DNA from: a virus
Reading direction: 5' to 3' (one strand)
Length of the DNA: 30,704 nucleotides
Virus record (IMG/VR): IMGVR_UViG_3300035145_002235
Span: 1 to 30,704 of that record
Both the position numbers and the translations under genes were made by a program. Below the pieces are notes generated by a model. The model saw nothing but the letters and a program-made list of their open reading frames with translations. It did no database searches and was not told the origin of the DNA. This document shows, in pieces, positions 7,216 to 20,786 of the stretch. Positions within the stretch are counted from its first letter, which is position 1; each line of letters opens with the position of its first letter.

Positions 7216-7386
7216 ATGGCATTACCAAATACTGGCAGTACAATCACTATGAGTCAGATATCCAACTACTTTAGTGGACCGTCAACAAGTATTAGTATTG
7301 GTGCAGATTTAGGACCATACATAGGTATTTCAAATGGTACTACAATTACAATGAGTAGTACATTTGGCGGATATTATTTTCCTTAA
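7216..7386 (+). CDS. 56-residue fibre-like mini-protein
   Basis: A short ORF fills most of the gap between the fibre and the next gene: ATG at 7216, TAA at 7384-7386. It sits ~27 nt below the sigma70-like -10. The product starts MALPNTGSTITMSQISNYF and has two similar strands (STITMSQ and TTITMSS), a Ser/Thr/Gly-rich composition and an aromatic end (GGYYFP). From memory it resembles the short 'ISLSDxYGK'-type segments at the ends of marine T4-like phage fibre proteins, so it may be a small virion or fibre-associated protein. No strong Shine-Dalgarno is visible (GAGAAAATAAT precedes it). Function unknown. Confidence 0.6.
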   Translation: MALPNTGSTITMSQISNYFSGPSTSISIGADLGPYIGISNGTTITMSSTFGGYYFP

Positions 7387-7402
7387 ACACACAGGAGAAC
7401 TT

Positions 7403-7780
7403 ATGAAAACATTATATGAAGTAATGAACGTACACCTAGCTAATGAGTATACTAAAGCAAGAAAAAAAGCTCTGGTAAAAGAAATGGAATTAGAAAAAGA
7501 CTTGTTTGATCAAGTTATGGAAGCTATTGACGAACTAGATATTCCAGAAGATGATGAAAGACATCATTGGATTTCCAAGCTAGGAAGAGCTGCAGGAGTA
7601 GACTTACTTACATTAGGAAAAGTACAGCCAGAAAATATGTTAGCAATGGCAGGATTAGGTGATGACTTTCAAGAAGCAGTAAAAATTGCTACTGGCACAG
7701 CAAGAAGATTAAACCAAAAAACCATTGACGCTGAAAAAGACTTAAACGAAGAACTTATTCCAAACACTACATTAAAATGA
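7403..7780 (+). CDS. Conserved-looking hypothetical, 125 aa, helical
   Basis: The start was set at ATG 7403 because AGGAG (7393-7397) lies 5 nt upstream. The frame stays open further 5', but only weak start codons are available there and they would overlap the 56-residue ORF. The product (MKTLYEVMNVHLANEY...) is charged and mostly helical with no membrane segment, and has an acidic DELDIPEDDE stretch in the middle. No family was recognised. Its stop overlaps the next start (ATGA at 7777-7780), so it is translationally coupled to the glycosyltransferase and probably belongs to the same accessory operon. Confidence 0.8.
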   Translation: MKTLYEVMNVHLANEYTKARKKALVKEMELEKDLFDQVMEAIDELDIPEDDERHHWISKLGRAAGVDLLTLGKVQPENMLAMAGLGDDFQEAVKIATGTARRLNQKTIDAEKDLNEELIPNTTLK

Positions 7781-8358
7781 AAATAAGTATTTGTGTGCCT
7801 TGTAGAGATCAAGTACACACGTTGTTTACACAAAGTTTGGTTAATTTAACTAACAGACTCACGCGAAAACAAATAGATTTTGAATTGCATCTATTTGCGG
7901 GTAGCGTAATCTGTGAATCACGTACACGTCTTGTTGAAGAAGCACTATCTGTAAACAGTGATAAAATATTATTTTTAGACAGCGATATACAATTTCCTTC
8001 AAATATGATAGATAAATTGTATTCGCACAACAAAGATATTTGTGCTGCAACTTACAGCACAAGATATGAACCAATGAAATCTGTTGCTTTTACAGATCCT
8101 GACAATACAGAAAAAAGATTAGACCAAAAAGGATTACACAAAATTTGGGCAGTAGGAATGGGGTGTATGCTGATTGATATAGATGTTTTTCATACACTAC
8201 CTAAACCTTGGTTTGTACACGAATATAACAAAATAAACGATACGTTCAGTGGAGAGGATATATACTTTTGCAATCAAGCAATGCATCACGGCATTGATGT
8301 TTGGGTAGACACTGATATAAAATTAGGGCATTTAGGAACAAAGGCTTATATACTATGA
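7777..8358 (+). CDS. GT-A-fold glycosyltransferase (GT2-like)
   Basis: The 193-residue product has the features of a small GT2-type transferase. The N-terminal strand is MKISICVPCRDQV. A D68-S69-D70 (FLDSDIQF) DxD motif would hold the metal and the nucleotide sugar. A later GEDIYF (159-164) offers an acidic acceptor-side residue, and H185 in KLGHLG fits the C-terminal His seen in related enzymes. No transmembrane helix is visible, so it is soluble. It overlaps both neighbours by 4 nt (ATGA), inside the run 7403-11660. The sugar and acceptor are unknown. Being next to the fibre gene and a GT-like repeat protein, it may modify virion or host-surface glycans (inference). Confidence 0.8.
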   Translation: MKISICVPCRDQVHTLFTQSLVNLTNRLTRKQIDFELHLFAGSVICESRTRLVEEALSVNSDKILFLDSDIQFPSNMIDKLYSHNKDICAATYSTRYEPMKSVAFTDPDNTEKRLDQKGLHKIWAVGMGCMLIDIDVFHTLPKPWFVHEYNKINDTFSGEDIYFCNQAMHHGIDVWVDTDIKLGHLGTKAYIL

Positions 8359-11300
8359 GAGCAATTGATAGATTTGAAAAATTTTCTAAACCTTTACACA
8401 ACGGTCAAGATCAATTAAAAAATTTAATATTTGATAGATACCCAGTTTTGAAAATTGATGACTATTGTAATTTAGACAAGGTGTACGAGCAAAACTTTGA
8501 TAGTGATTATGTTTGGCTTGTAGATAAAAATATAAGAGTATACGATAGTTTTCCTTGGTGGTTTAAACCACGAGCAATTGATGAAGTGCAAATACACGAA
8601 TTTCCTTATGTATATAAAGAAAGTAGAAAAGTAAAAAGTTGGGATAAAGTAAGATTAGTGCCAACAAAACCTGTTTCTACAGAACCAAAACAGCATATAC
8701 ATATTTGCGGAGAATATGATGTATACAAAGGAAATGAAAAATTTGATGTTTTTTATATTGGTCAAGATCAACAAGATATAGATAAGTTGTTAACAAAAGT
8801 TCCACATTTACAAACAGTAGATAGTTGGCAAGAAGCACAACAAAGAAGTTATACTGATATGTTTTGGATTGTATGGGAAGATATAGTAGTAAGAGATACA
8901 TTTAAATTTAGCTATAAGCCCGATGAATGGAGTCACGATTTTGTACACGTATTTGGTAATGGTGATATAGATCAGCTCGACGGTGTTGCATTGTTTCCAA
9001 AAAATTATCCTATTACTGAAAAAGAATTAAGCCATAGATTTTATGCAAATAAAAAAGAAGTTAGGATTATGGCAAGCGAACCAAAACTTTATGATTGTTT
9101 TAATATAGATAGTTTCTATGAATATGAAAATGCATTAACTAAAAGCAAAACAGATATGTTTTGGGGTGTACCAAGAGATGTTGATGTAAATAGTAGTTTC
9201 AAACTAGATTATTATATTAGTAATCACGAAAGGCAATTGAAAAATAAAAATCACGTTTGGTTAAATGGTAACAAGTACAATGGAATAACACTTTTTAGTA
9301 AAACTACACCTGTAACTAAGAAAGAAATTGATTATAGATTTATTGCCAATAGAATAGAACACAATGAAATTGCAAGTGTTCCAAAACCATTAGATAGGTT
9401 TGTAATTGATAACTATGATGATTATTTGAAAGCAAAAGATTCATCAAATACACATATGTTTATAGGTATTCCAAGCGATGTTATAGAAAACAAAGATTTT
9501 AACATTGATGAATATTTCGCTAAACAAGATGAGTTAGATACAGGTACAACACATTTGTTTCTCAACAACAATGACTTTGATGGAATAGTTGTGTATAGCA
9601 AAAGTGTAGAAGTTGATGAAAAAGAAGTTAATCATAGGTTTTATGTTAATAAAAAAGAACACAAACAGATTGCAAGTTATCCTAAACCATTTGAGAAATT
9701 TGTAATTAACAATTACAATGACTACTTAGATGCTGTAAAACAGAGCAAAACAGATATGTTTTGGAGTATACCTAGTGATGTAGAAGTCATTGAAGATTTT
9801 AATTTTAATATGTATTTTAGCCATCATAATAAATTTGATAGAGAAATAAATCACGTTTTCTTAAATGGAGAACATTATGATGGTATTGTTTTATTCAGCA
9901 AAAATTCATTAGTTTCAGAAAAAGAAATAGATCATAGATTTTTGGTTAATAAAAAAGAATGGGAAATAGTTGCAAGTAATCCTAAACCTTTTGAAAAATT
10001 TGTTGTTTCAAATTATGATGAATATTTACGTGCTAGAGAGCAATCAAAAACAGATATGTTTTGGATGATTTATCCGGATCTAGATATTGAGAAAAATTTT
10101 GATTGGAAGTTTTATATTACACATCATAATCAATATGAAAGAAAAATTAACCACGTTTGGAGAAATGGTGAATTTTATGACGGTATAGCTCTAACTACAA
10201 AAAGCATAATGCTTACCAAACACGAATTAGATTATAGATTTTTAGCTATAAAAAAAGAATATGATGATTTAGGAAGTTATCCAGAATCTTATGATATAGT
10301 TTTCATTAGTAATGGAGAACCAAATGCAGAAGAAAATTACAGCAAATTGTTACAAAATTATCCAAATGCAAAAAGGGTAGATAAAGTAAAAGGTATTCAT
10401 CAAGCTCACATTGAAGCAGCAAAACAAGTATCAACAGATATGTTTTGGGTAGTTGATGGTGATGCTGAATTATTAGATGATTTTGAATTGTATCATCAAA
10501 TTGCACATTACGATGTTGACGGATTGAAAACAGTATATGTATGGAGAAGTTTAAATCCTGTAAATGATCTTATATACGGTTACGGAGGAGTAAAATTATT
10601 ACCAACAAACCTAACTTTGAATATGGATGTAAACACACCTGATATGACCACAAGTATTAGCAAAAATTTTAAAGGTATTAATAGGATGAGTAATATTACT
10701 GCATTTAACACAGATGCTTTTAGTGCCTGGAAAAGTGGGTTTAGAGAATGTGTAAAGTTGGCTAGTAGAAGTATTGATAGACAGATAGATGACGAGTCTA
10801 CATTTAGATTGAAAGCGTGGTGCTCTAGAGGCAAAGATAAACCTTTTGGTAAAGAAACTATTGCCGGCTCTTACGAAGGAGCAAAATATGGTATTGCTTT
10901 TAAAAATAATATATCTGCTCTACAAAAAATTAACGATTTTGAATGGTTACAAAAAAAGTTTAAAGAAACTTATAATGCCGATATAGAAGAATATGATTTA
11001 GATTTTCTTGAAAAAACAGAAGAAGAAAACATTATAGAATTTAATCCTCTTGCAAAAAGTATTTTTAAACAAATAGATAAAAAGTTAGGAGAAAATTTTA
11101 ATTATCAAAATGGTAGTGTAAAATTTAGTATAGAAAATGTTGGTGACATTTTTTTTGATAAATCAGGTGTTAAAATAAGTAAAAAATATGCAGATGCAGA
11201 GATACACATTGATTTAAAGAATGCTCTAAAAGCACTTTCCTTAGAAGTAGATACTCTTGACCTTTATAAAAAAGGTGATATTATAGTCGAGGGCGATGTA

Positions 11301-11660
11301 GATATTGCCCAGGATTTTTTTGCTAAATTAAAAAGTGTAGCCTTGCAAGGAGACCAAAGTGTTATTAATTTACACATTATAGAACTTACAAACTATATTA
11401 ATCCAGGTATACTTGATTTATCTATTTGTATTAAGGATCAAGGAATTATAGTATTTGATAAAGATGGAATTACTGAATCAACAAAGGTTAAAGATACAAA
11501 TATAAACATAGATAGCAAGCATTTTAAATTATTACTTACAGGTGAGATTACTATTGTAGAATTAATTGCGGATAAAGATGTCACTTATACCGGCGATGTA
11601 TTAGAAGTAATTAAGTTAAGTCAGCAGTTTCACTATCGAGAAAAACATCAATTAGTTTAA
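8355..11660 (+). CDS. 1101-aa repeat protein: tandem degenerate GT-like units, one DGD-bearing domain, possible SCP2-like tail
   Basis: Three parts are visible. Residues ~150-650 hold five units of almost exactly 100 residues, each with TDMFW, a single Asp six residues on, a HV(W/F)LNG...(Y/F)DGI strand, an E(I/L/V)xxRF block and PKPFEKFVI. TDMFW starts at residues 167, 266, 366 (THMFI), 466 and 566. A sixth, longer unit (residues 651-870) has the same start at 694 but an intact D701-G-D703 motif and long segments (YGYGGVKLLP, DMTTSIS, FRECVKLAS) of a type I recall from T4-like marine phages annotated as glycosyltransferase-like. Residues ~915-1098 look like two SCP2-like folds. The start overlaps the upstream glycosyltransferase by 4 nt, and the 3' end overlaps the Nudix gene on the other strand by 50 bp. 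Possible partner or scaffold for the adjacent transferase (inference). Confidence 0.75.
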   Translation: MRAIDRFEKFSKPLHNGQDQLKNLIFDRYPVLKIDDYCNLDKVYEQNFDSDYVWLVDKNIRVYDSFPWWFKPRAIDEVQIHEFPYVYKESRKVKSWDKVRLVPTKPVSTEPKQHIHICGEYDVYKGNEKFDVFYIGQDQQDIDKLLTKVPHLQTVDSWQEAQQRSYTDMFWIVWEDIVVRDTFKFSYKPDEWSHDFVHVFGNGDIDQLDGVALFPKNYPITEKELSHRFYANKKEVRIMASEPKLYDCFNIDSFYEYENALTKSKTDMFWGVPRDVDVNSSFKLDYYISNHERQLKNKNHVWLNGNKYNGITLFSKTTPVTKKEIDYRFIANRIEHNEIASVPKPLDRFVIDNYDDYLKAKDSSNTHMFIGIPSDVIENKDFNIDEYFAKQDELDTGTTHLFLNNNDFDGIVVYSKSVEVDEKEVNHRFYVNKKEHKQIASYPKPFEKFVINNYNDYLDAVKQSKTDMFWSIPSDVEVIEDFNFNMYFSHHNKFDREINHVFLNGEHYDGIVLFSKNSLVSEKEIDHRFLVNKKEWEIVASNPKPFEKFVVSNYDEYLRAREQSKTDMFWMIYPDLDIEKNFDWKFYITHHNQYERKINHVWRNGEFYDGIALTTKSIMLTKHELDYRFLAIKKEYDDLGSYPESYDIVFISNGEPNAEENYSKLLQNYPNAKRVDKVKGIHQAHIEAAKQVSTDMFWVVDGDAELLDDFELYHQIAHYDVDGLKTVYVWRSLNPVNDLIYGYGGVKLLPTNLTLNMDVNTPDMTTSISKNFKGINRMSNITAFNTDAFSAWKSGFRECVKLASRSIDRQIDDESTFRLKAWCSRGKDKPFGKETIAGSYEGAKYGIAFKNNISALQKINDFEWLQKKFKETYNADIEEYDLDFLEKTEEENIIEFNPLAKSIFKQIDKKLGENFNYQNGSVKFSIENVGDIFFDKSGVKISKKYADAEIHIDLKNALKALSLEVDTLDLYKKGDIIVEGDVDIAQDFFAKLKSVALQGDQSVINLHIIELTNYINPGILDLSICIKDQGIIVFDKDGITESTKVKDTNINIDSKHFKLLLTGEITIVELIADKDVTYTGDVLEVIKLSQQFHYREKHQLV
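8808..10305 (+). repeat. Five tandem ~300-bp coding repeats
   Basis: The units encode 100-residue modules. The TDMFW-equivalent codons begin at 8853, 9150, 9450, 9750 and 10050, so the last four are exactly 300 nt apart. The units at 9750 and 10050 are the most alike. All stay in frame, so the array is a protein-level tandem duplication rather than simple-sequence DNA. Confidence 0.85.
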
Positions 11661-12069
11661 TAGCAGCTTCTAGTTTTGTGCTATTTGTTTTATTGCGAAC
11701 TGTGTTTGCTAAACCGTTGTGTAAAGGCTTTGGCCACTTCCCAAAAGATATCCAAGCATATCCATTGTGTTCACCATTTAATTTAGGTATAAATTCTTTA
11801 TCAACAACACAAAGATAAGTATGAAAGAAAAAGTTTTGGTCTTTACTAATAAAACTTTCTAAGGGTAATATTTTTTTAAAACTAGGTAAAAATCCAATTT
11901 CCTCTTTAATCTCTCTTTTTAATCCTTCCCACGGAGTCTCTATTCCTTCGTTGGTGCCTCCAACAAGTCCCCATTGATTTTTTGTTTTACCTTTGGTTCT
12001 GTGTAATAAAAGAAAACGTTTTTCGTTTTTTGAATATATTAATGCACCGCTACAAATTACTTTGTTCAT
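11611..12069 (-). CDS. Nudix (MutT-like) hydrolase
   Basis: The 152-residue product has a complete Nudix box, G-x5-E-x7-REUxEExGU, from G38 to F60 (G38...E44...R52-E53-I-K-E56-E57-I-G-F60). The acidic cluster would bind Mg2+ for cleaving a nucleoside diphosphate linked to another group. The substrate cannot be inferred. It lies 13 nt below gp15 on the minus strand, so it may be read from the gp14-gp15 transcript. Its last 50 bp overlap the convergent 1101-residue gene. No clear Shine-Dalgarno precedes the ATG. Phage Nudix enzymes in T4-like genomes cleave dinucleotides or sanitise nucleotide pools (family knowledge). Confidence 0.9.
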   Translation of the reverse strand: MNKVICSGALIYSKNEKRFLLLHRTKGKTKNQWGLVGGTNEGIETPWEGLKREIKEEIGFLPSFKKILPLESFISKDQNFFFHTYLCVVDKEFIPKLNGEHNGYAWISFGKWPKPLHNGLANTVRNKTNSTKLEAAIKLIDVFLDSETADLT

Positions 12070-17452: not shown

Positions 17453-17489
17453 ATAGTAATAAAGAATATGACCCATAGGAGAAATGAAA

Positions 17490-20400
17490 ATGGCTTTAAC
17501 ATCACCAGGTGTACAGGTTAGCGTAATTGACGAAAGTTTCTACACGCCAGCAGAACCAGGTACAACACCTATACTATTTGTAGCGTCTGCAGAAAACAAA
17601 TTAAACGCTGCAGGCACCGGTATTGCTCCAGGAACAACGAAAGCAAATGCTGGTAAAGTTTACTTAATGACATCTCAAAGAGATTTAGCAGAAACATTTG
17701 GCGATCCTCTTTTCTACACAGATGCAAATAATAATCCAATACACGGAGGTGAACAGAATGAATACGGTTTACAAGCAGCGTATTCATATTTAGGTGTAAG
17801 CAATAGAGCATACGTTGTACGTGCAGATGTAGACTTAGGAGGTCTATCAGCTAGTGCAACTCCAACAACATCTAATCCAGCAGATGGTACTTGGTGGTTA
17901 GATACATCAACATCAATGTTTGGTATTCAAGAATGGAATGCCGCAGCAATTACAACAACTGGTGGACAAACATTTGCAAATAAAACACCGATAGTAATTA
18001 CAGATGCTACTCAGCTAGTAGGTAATTCAGCAACAGGAGCACCAAAAGGGTCAATTGGTGCAGTTGGTGATTACGCAGTGAGAGCAACTTCTACTACATT
18101 AAAAACATATTATAAAAACAAAAGCGGAGCGTGGGTTGAAGTAGGAAGTGCAAACTGGAAGAAAAGTTGGCCTTCTGTTTCAAGTGCAGCAGGTGGAGCA
18201 ACAGGTAGTGGAGAAACCTTCACACTAAACGGTACAACTGTTACAACAAGTGGTACAACACTTTCATCATTAGCAGGTGATATCAACGGAGAATCAATCA
18301 CTGGTATAACAGCCGCAGTAGTAGATAATAAATTAGAAATATACAACGACGGCAGTGGACAAGATACAATTGTGCTTGTAGACGGAACAGGTACACCATT
18401 AGCAGATATTAGTATTACAGCAGGTACATACTACAATACTGCTTTAACAATAGCACCGCATACAAGTGTTCCAGAATATAAGTCAGGTGATAGTAATCCT
18501 AGACCAACTGGATCGTTATGGGTAAAGACAACTGAACCTAATTTAGGTGCAAGTTGGAAAGTACGTGTATGGAACGGATCAACAGAAACTTGGGATTTAA
18601 AATCAGCACCGTTGTATACAAACAACGCAACAGCAATAAAAGAATTAGACAATGCAGGTGGCGGAGTAAATTTAGCCGCAAATAGTTTGTATATAAAATA
18701 TAATGCTGCAGACGATACCCCAACATTGGCTTCATACTACATATACTATAGAGTATCAGGTGGTCCTACTACAATTACATCAAATAAAATTGACGCAAGT
18801 ACTTTTAGTTCCGGAGCATTAACTTTTACAGTTAGTGAATCACTAAAAGGCAATGCTACAATGACTACACCAGCAACAGCATCATTTACAGCGACAGCAG
18901 CTGCAACAGATGCTGACTTAATGGCAGAAGCAGTAAACAATTTAGGATTAGTAAATGTTTCGGCAAGTGTTGATAGCCAAAATAGAGTTGTTATTACACA
19001 CAAATTAGGTGGTGAAATAAACTTTGTTGATACTGATAACGCATTAACAGCATCAGGTTTAGTAGCAGGCACTACAACAAACTTGTATTGGCAACCAGGT
19101 GAATCAGGTAGCAACCCTGAAAAACTAACTGCATCACTTTGGAAAGGTTTGACATACACAGCAAGTGCAAATGCACCAACAGCATTAGCTGCTGATGGAA
19201 CATTATGGTATAGCAGTGTAATCGACGAAGTTGACTTAATGATACACAATGGTAGTGAGTGGGTAGGTTACTTATATGACGGATCAAGCGGAATATCAAC
19301 TACAGCTGCACCATATTATACTGGTACACTGAATAGTCAACCTAGCGCAGCAGGTCCAATTATAAGTGCAACAGAACCAACAAATACAAGTCGTCCAGAT
19401 GGAAATAACTTAGTTACTGGTGATATTTGGATCAGCACAGCAGATTTAGAAAACTTTCCAAAAATCTACAGATACAATTCTGCACTTACAAACAAATGGG
19501 TATTGCTAGATAATACAGATCAAACTACAGAAAATGGTGTATTGTTTGCTGATGCACGTTGGAGTACTAACGGTGGTACTGCTTCTGCACACACAGCAGG
19601 CGATATTGAAGATTTAATTGCAAGTGACTTTTTAGACACAGATGCACCAGATCCTGCATTATATCCAAAAGGTATGCTATTATGGAATACACGCAGAAGC
19701 GGATTTAATGTCAAGAAATTTGTTAGAAACTATGTTGATGTAACAGCAGTTAACACAAGACAAAATGATGCAAGTATGAGTGCTTACTATCCACATCGTT
19801 GGGTAACAGAAAGTGCAAATAATGCAGACGGTTCAGGTGCGTTTGGTAGAATATCACAGCGTAAAGTTGTAGTTCAAGCAATGCAGTCAATGCTTAATAG
19901 CAACGACGATATTAGAGATGACGAATCACGTATCTTTAACTTAATTGCAACACCAGGTTATCCAGAATTAATTGGCGAAATGATTAGTCTGAATGCAGAC
20001 AGAGGATTGACTGCATTTGTTGTAGGTGACTCACCTGCAAGACTAACACCAGATGCAACATCATTAAACAACTGGGCAACAAACGTTGCATTAGCACCAG
20101 AAGATAATGACGACGGATTGGTCACAAGCGATGAATACTTAGGTGTTTACTATCCAAGTGGCTTTACAAGTGACAATGCAGGTAACAATGTTGTTGTTCC
20201 TCCAAGTCATATGGTGTTACGTACAATGGCATTAAATGATCAGGTTGCATTTCCTTGGTTTGCACCAGCTGGTACAAGACGCGGTGGTGTTACAAATGCT
20301 ACAGCGACAGGATATATTAACAGTGAAGGTGAATTTGTAAGTGTTGCTCTTAACGAAGGACAAAGAGATACACTGTATGCAAATAATGTTAATCCAATCA

Positions 20401-20786
20401 CTTTCTTAACAGGAGCAGGACTTGTTGTATTTGGACAAAAAACTCGTGCAAGAAACGCAAGTGCATTGGATAGAATTAATGTTGCAAGACTTACAGTTTA
20501 CTTACGTAGTCAGTTGAATCAACTTGCAAAACCATATTTGTTTGAACCAAATGATAAAATTACAAGAGACGAAATCAAACAACAAGTTGAAAGTCTAATG
20601 ATTGAATTGGTTGGTTTAAGAGCTCTATTTGACTTCTTAGTAGTATGTGACGAAACAAACAACACACCTGCTAGAATTGATAGAAACGAACTATATGTTG
20701 ACATAGCAGTAGAACCAGTGAAAGCAGTAGAATTCATATACATTCCACTACGTTTGAAAAATACTGGAGAAATAGCAGGCTTATAA
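17490..20786 (+). CDS. 18: Tail sheath protein gp18, enlarged
   Basis: The N-terminus (MALTSPGVQVSVIDESFY) and the C-terminal ~330 residues (ATPGYPELI, AFPWFAPAGTRRG, VFGQKTRA, ARLTVYLRSQL) are typical of contractile sheath proteins. The sheath is the contracting outer tube that drives the inner tube into the cell. ATG 17490 was chosen over ATG 17484 because TAGGAG (17476-17481) is 8 nt from the former but only 2 nt from the latter. At 1098 residues it is far longer than T4 gp18 (659). The extra ~440 residues lie between residues ~115 and 700 and contain five W-rich modules, probably on the outer face. A probable variant late promoter lies upstream and a hairpin (20794-20821) follows before gp19. 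Confidence 0.92.
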   Translation: MALTSPGVQVSVIDESFYTPAEPGTTPILFVASAENKLNAAGTGIAPGTTKANAGKVYLMTSQRDLAETFGDPLFYTDANNNPIHGGEQNEYGLQAAYSYLGVSNRAYVVRADVDLGGLSASATPTTSNPADGTWWLDTSTSMFGIQEWNAAAITTTGGQTFANKTPIVITDATQLVGNSATGAPKGSIGAVGDYAVRATSTTLKTYYKNKSGAWVEVGSANWKKSWPSVSSAAGGATGSGETFTLNGTTVTTSGTTLSSLAGDINGESITGITAAVVDNKLEIYNDGSGQDTIVLVDGTGTPLADISITAGTYYNTALTIAPHTSVPEYKSGDSNPRPTGSLWVKTTEPNLGASWKVRVWNGSTETWDLKSAPLYTNNATAIKELDNAGGGVNLAANSLYIKYNAADDTPTLASYYIYYRVSGGPTTITSNKIDASTFSSGALTFTVSESLKGNATMTTPATASFTATAAATDADLMAEAVNNLGLVNVSASVDSQNRVVITHKLGGEINFVDTDNALTASGLVAGTTTNLYWQPGESGSNPEKLTASLWKGLTYTASANAPTALAADGTLWYSSVIDEVDLMIHNGSEWVGYLYDGSSGISTTAAPYYTGTLNSQPSAAGPIISATEPTNTSRPDGNNLVTGDIWISTADLENFPKIYRYNSALTNKWVLLDNTDQTTENGVLFADARWSTNGGTASAHTAGDIEDLIASDFLDTDAPDPALYPKGMLLWNTRRSGFNVKKFVRNYVDVTAVNTRQNDASMSAYYPHRWVTESANNADGSGAFGRISQRKVVVQAMQSMLNSNDDIRDDESRIFNLIATPGYPELIGEMISLNADRGLTAFVVGDSPARLTPDATSLNNWATNVALAPEDNDDGLVTSDEYLGVYYPSGFTSDNAGNNVVVPPSHMVLRTMALNDQVAFPWFAPAGTRRGGVTNATATGYINSEGEFVSVALNEGQRDTLYANNVNPITFLTGAGLVVFGQKTRARNASALDRINVARLTVYLRSQLNQLAKPYLFEPNDKITRDEIKQQVESLMIELVGLRALFDFLVVCDETNNTPARIDRNELYVDIAVEPVKAVEFIYIPLRLKNTGEIAGL

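Follow-up and report, generated by a model that had tools for sequence, protein, structure and literature searches.

Why should a phage protein carry a row of glycosyltransferase-like units ahead of a single copy that looks complete? The question is raised by a 1101-residue open reading frame in the window (the whole stretch of 30,704 nucleotides analysed here), the source of which is a candidate marine T4-like phage. The reading frame (Table 1) and its six TDMFW-type anchors, at residues 167, 266, 366, 466, 566 and 694, lie where the initial annotation had placed them; successive anchors are 99, 100, 100, 100 and 128 residues apart, with the copies of the D1 repeat spaced by exactly 300 nt. 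It is also correct that a full DGD motif is confined to the last unit, and that each unit keeps an Asp matching the second Asp of that motif. The repeats had, however, been described as near-exact, and here the description fails: units 2 to 5 are 34-53% identical to one another in protein and 54-69% in DNA. Unit 1 shares 13-20% with the others in ungapped comparison, a figure that is low because this unit still holds its own beta1-alpha1 element.

Table 1. Features of the array gene and its neighbours in the window (residues are those of the 1101-residue protein)
Feature	Coordinates	Strand	Remarks
Tail fibre/virion protein, 2358 aa	75..7151	+	upstream
138-aa ORF, phrog_1409	7364..7780	+	conserved upstream neighbour
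Small GT-A-type transferase, 193 aa, phrog_1574	7777..8358	+	intact; overlaps array gene by 4 nt
Array ORF, 1101 aa	8355..11660	+	GT-A-like N-terminal domain, then five truncated units, a catalytic-type domain with DGD and an SCP2-like C-terminus
N-terminal domain, residues 1-128	8355..8738	+	probably a diverged GT-A-like copy; hhalign, fold alignment
Unit 1, residues 129-228	8739..9038	+	most complete unit; beta1-alpha1 present, no DxD
Unit 2, residues 229-328	9039..9338	+	no beta1-alpha1, no DxD
Unit 3, residues 329-428	9339..9638	+	
Unit 4, residues 429-528	9639..9938	+	
Unit 5, residues 529-628	9939..10238	+	
GT-A domain with DGD, residues 643-873	10281..10973	+	C-terminal third helical; AF2 and Foldseek/VIA
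DGD motif, residues 701-703	10455..10463	+	both Asp invariant (81/81 homologues)
R797-E798-x-x-K801 on helix	10743..10757	+	candidate catalytic base/substrate site; absent from units
SCP2-like domain 1, residues 909-989	11079..11321	+	PF02036 match
Probable second SCP2-like half, residues 1022-1084	11418..11606	+	hhalign to first half
NUDIX hydrolase	11611..12069	-	convergent; conserved downstream neighbour

That the last unit is glycosyltransferase-like, as the initial annotation held, is supported by its GT-A fold. The AF2 model of this domain, built from an alignment with 81 homologues, has a pLDDT of 94.2; nearly all of its best Foldseek matches in the PDB (E 6e-5 to 1e-3) belong to GT-A enzymes, and VIA aligns it to B4GALNT1 with Z 11.4 over 137 residues at 2.8 A, with SunS, WrtF and ppGalNAc-Ts also among the Foldseek and VIA matches. 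The helical C-terminal third has few fold matches. Nucleotidyltransferases of the IspD/MobA type share a GT-A-like fold with the domain (Z about 10), so the fold by itself is no proof of sugar transfer. D701 and D703 of the DxD motif occur in 81/81 homologues. A classic ED is not present; R797 and K801 (81/81) and E798 (80/81) lie on a helix and are candidates for the catalytic base, and the conserved YGYGGVK, in which G744 and K747 are invariant, is a candidate G-loop. From these residues we infer that the DGD domain is a catalytic GT-A glycosyltransferase.

In sequence searches, PF00535 (Glycos_transf_2) narrowly misses its gathering score (23.0 vs 23.3 bits), and matches 8/18 family members at E up to 0.1 (best 8e-5). 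There is no credible PDB sequence match for the whole protein, the DGD profile or the C-terminus, and neither the array nor the DGD domain falls convincingly in a PHROG or NCBIfam family. In a tblastn search of 50,697 phage records, a set from which near relatives of the window may be missing, neither the whole protein nor the DGD domain of a relative found a match, the domain not even at E 1. Two proteins of uncultured Caudovirales, A0A6J5L5L5 (1076 aa) and A0A6J5LK21 (804 aa), align over the full DGD domain with TM 0.87-0.88, and on this structural comparison are assigned to the same family.

What, then, are the repeated units? Profile alignment of unit against unit with hhalign gives E-values of 1e-17 to 1e-54, so their likeness is not due to chance. 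Every unit moreover aligns with the N-terminal half of that domain which bears the DGD, the anchors being in register, with probabilities of 80-98.6%; unit 1 gives the highest (98.6%, E 1e-15), and VIA aligns it to GT-A folds with Z 8.0-8.5. AF2 models residues 1-645 with a pLDDT of 89; in this model each unit runs through strand 2, a helix, strand 3, three short strands, a helix and a long strand, and comparison of the two AF2 models shows this to be the order of the DGD domain, element by element. A Foldseek search with residues 1-645 returned nothing below E 0.001, most of the matches listed being GT-A enzymes; the VIA matches of this stretch cover mainly residues 122-247, and among the PDB matches listed units 2 to 5 have none of their own. 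Profile homology and the modelled secondary structure nonetheless predict a GT-A-like fold for units 2 to 5 as well. The earlier proposal that the units are copies of the DGD domain that lost the DxD and kept the fold thus stands as regards homology, motif loss and a GT-A-like order of elements, and neither of the two outcomes named in advance as counting against it, an unrelated fold in the units or a last unit placed outside the glycosyltransferases, was observed.

The copies are truncated as well as altered. None of units 1 to 5 has a complete GT-A core with DxD: beta1-alpha1 is missing in units 2 to 5, and the region of the R-E-K helix is missing from all five. Across the family, the first Asp of the DxD is found in 1/156 units and the second in 98/156. 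Units that have neither the first Asp nor the R-E-K helix should not transfer sugar, and judged from their sequences they are very probably non-catalytic. A possible seventh copy at the N-terminus, raised by the initial annotation, gains moderate support. Residues 20-81 of the N-terminal block align with residues 47-111 of the DGD domain (hhalign probability 70-79%), and the two-domain GT-A structures of mimivirus R699 and COLGALT1 align to the protein from about residue 28 or earlier; the region is probably a diverged copy.

Loss of catalytic residues, together with a copy number that varies, might suggest that the repeats are functionless leftovers of a decaying duplication. This is scarcely credible, being contradicted both by selection and by positional orthology. 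First, comparison of four pairs of relatives puts dN/dS at 0.00-0.20 for each unit, against 0.04-0.05 for the DGD domain; by this measure purifying selection constrains the units roughly as strongly as it does the catalytic domain, and to call them degenerate, as had been done, is misleading. Second, in a tree of 134 units the first units form one clade (support 100/98) and the others mostly cluster by position across divergent phages, with few lineage-specific duplications (e.g. units 3 and 4 of L098).

The initial annotation had advised comparing repeat number in related phages, and this proves to vary widely. A first scan of viral contigs yielded 30 relatives of the array protein and a later one at least 600 matching stretches, with 594 confirmed among the 600 listed. 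Over 67 complete, non-redundant proteins, the number of units is 0 (23 proteins), 1 (10), 2 (5), 3 (9), 4 (3), 5 (15) or 11 (2), though a few zero-unit members (L024 and L029) hold diverged copies below the detection of the unit model. As 23/67 complete relatives are without a detectable unit, the array appears dispensable for the core reaction. The two proteins with 11 units (L109:637-5127, 1497 aa; L059:2861-7273, 1471 aa) occupy the syntenic slot of the 5-unit gene of the window. At L060:6398-8672 the array is spread over two overlapping open reading frames, one of 442 aa consisting of units only and one of 323 aa with one unit and the DGD domain.

Whole units have been gained and lost during evolution. 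The clearest case is the pair L008 and L012, which differ by 291 bp, exactly one unit, between flanks that are 100% and 99.9% identical; a short identical stretch of about 6 nt lies at the junction. Misassembly is an unlikely cause of this difference, each form being present in at least two contigs and the copies in the breakpoint region being 64.5% identical. Stepwise differences of one unit are also seen among L083, L087 and L069, with a domain identity of about 82%.

A clean indel of a whole unit, together with conserved short linkers (A3) and the fact that in one syntenic slot the N-terminal and DGD domains flank 0, 3, 5 or 11 units, would also fit an array that binds nothing and serves as a rigid spacer or ruler, separating the catalytic domain from an N-terminal domain on which the small transferase or another partner docks. 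We consider this somewhat unlikely: each unit is conserved in a manner specific to its position and has a low dN/dS, which is more than a generic spacer would appear to need, and in a second type of locus, described below, the N-terminal domain is missing and the array comes first.

The gene neighbourhood bears on two further possibilities. Directly upstream of the array gene, in 19/19 complete loci of the window type, lies the small 193-aa transferase, with the NUDIX gene directly downstream; D68xD70 and E160-D161 of the small transferase are conserved in at least 95% of 29 relatives, and its overlap with the array gene is conserved, being 4 nt in most. Such constancy is what would be expected if the array were a scaffold that recruits the small transferase, whose product the DGD domain would extend. 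Against this, 26 complete unit-bearing relatives are in loci where no 193-aa transferase was detected, so the units are not specific to it, and unit number ranges from 0 to 11 while the small transferase remains single-copy; the scaffold is accordingly an improbable explanation. In the window, the array gene also sits between tail-fibre and tail/neck genes (at the loci of relatives, nearly all tail-fibre reading frames run off the contigs), and this location, together with a repeat number that changes as receptor-binding proteins might, is compatible with a virion component in which the array is a glycan-binding adhesin and the DGD domain a vestige. We regard this as highly improbable, since catalytic-type residues are invariant in 81/81 homologues and many of the relatives are enzymes of one domain, encoded in islands for glycan biosynthesis or, in a bacterium, within a glycosyltransferase cluster. 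Further downstream (17484-20786) the window encodes a tail sheath of 1100 aa, compared with 915 for the best PHROG profile, with the sheath C-terminal domain at 993-1089.

In the second type of locus, relatives adjoin radical-SAM genes, of which 73 loci contain 166 copies (Pfam-supported), and their neighbours also include UDP-Glc/GDP-Man dehydrogenase, epimerase and DegT genes. Here the array begins at the N-terminus of the protein, without the N-terminal GT-A-like domain, and a paralogue of about 300 aa is often encoded directly upstream. These neighbourhoods are apparently host-recognition islands, and the islands that carry the family probably remodel surface glycans. They resemble, on the basis of gene neighbourhoods, a host-recognition cluster of pelagimyophages that lies between VrlC and gp14 and contains tail fibres, glycosyltransferases and radical-SAM cassettes (PMC7029224). 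The available part of that account stresses GT8 and holds no repeat array; modification of the host surface is the published guess for such islands.

Several members of the family depart from these arrangements. In L024:5965-9915 four family genes stand side by side (306, 494, 227 and 289 aa), the type of the ~300-aa paralogue among them, and L029:5998-8169 has an additional C-terminal region of about 230 aa, methyltransferase-like by eye, for which Pfam gives a weak MCRA match only. In an Oligoflexia MAG (L118:6804-8708) a radical SAM/SPASM region, with sub-threshold Pfam matches, is fused to a DGD domain, an arrangement that echoes the radical-SAM neighbours of the phage loci. A Photorhabdus chromosome encodes a homologue (L119:7995-8696) between GT4 and GT2 genes, in a cluster with a GT4, two GT2, a PcrB-like gene, a FAD-binding protein and an apparent ABC exporter; its product is perhaps a glycosylated natural product.

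The C-terminus of the window protein, which the initial annotation did not describe, contains an SCP2-like domain: PF02036 matches at 31.6 bits against a gathering cutoff of 21.3 (E 2e-7), and is found in 5/5 members that have the C-terminal extension (best E 1e-8). The second half of the extension aligns with the first (hhalign 93.7%, E 2e-7) and is probably a second SCP2-like domain; its match to Alkyl_sulf_C is below the cutoff. The extension was seen only in the window, L001, L002, L032 and L033.

Taken together, these observations lead us to favour, with moderate confidence, a phage glycosyltransferase of the GT-A type in which non-catalytic pseudo-glycosyltransferase modules form an internal array and position an acceptor or a partner. 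The small transferase and the DGD domain might modify a single glycan or glycoconjugate one after the other, with the array as a modular arm that would keep the acceptor and/or partner close to where catalysis takes place, and the number of units might set the reach or valency of this arm. The SCP2-like C-terminus may serve to retain an acceptor that is hydrophobic or linked to a lipid. The most likely target would be a glycan on the host surface, whose modification might mask the receptor or exclude superinfection; the alternative would be the tail fibres of the phage itself. More tentatively, this could be extended to a widespread phage glycosyltransferase family in which an array of 0-11 truncated modules is an arm for holding the glycan acceptor, and whole-unit recombination tunes the reach or specificity of phage-driven surface glycosylation.

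Acceptor holding is suggested by the conservation of the units and, by analogy, by the precedent of human B3GLCT, a GT31 enzyme in which an N-terminal GT-A-like domain whose DxD is not needed precedes a catalytic C-terminal GT-A domain (PMC8233153); the motifs conserved in the units might have a structural role only. A role in substrate recognition, possibly of a neighbouring TSR repeat, has been suggested for the N-terminal domain of B3GLCT (PMC8233153). The phage protein resembles B3GLCT in having an internal duplication with a DxD-independent copy ahead of the catalytic domain. However, B3GLCT has one near-complete copy as against 1-11 half-domains, belongs to another glycosyltransferase family and is an enzyme of the eukaryotic ER. 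Tandem GT-A pairs are also found in COLGALT1, mimivirus R699, the chondroitin polymerase K4CP and CHSY3-CHPF, all of them fold matches of residues 1-645, but these have two domains only and no truncated multi-copy array. At least one of the two domains is active in these enzymes.

A catalytic glycosyltransferase fused to a dead duplicate is thus already known from two-domain enzymes, and the phage protein is a new architecture made from a known fold; we found no phage glycosyltransferase array, nor up to 11 truncated copies under selection and of changing number, in the open-access literature searched. The family is abundant in phage islands and nearly unannotated, and its members with 0, 1, 2, 3, 4, 5 and 11 units, together with the pair that differs by a single unit, form a natural series for testing what pseudo-glycosyltransferase modules do.
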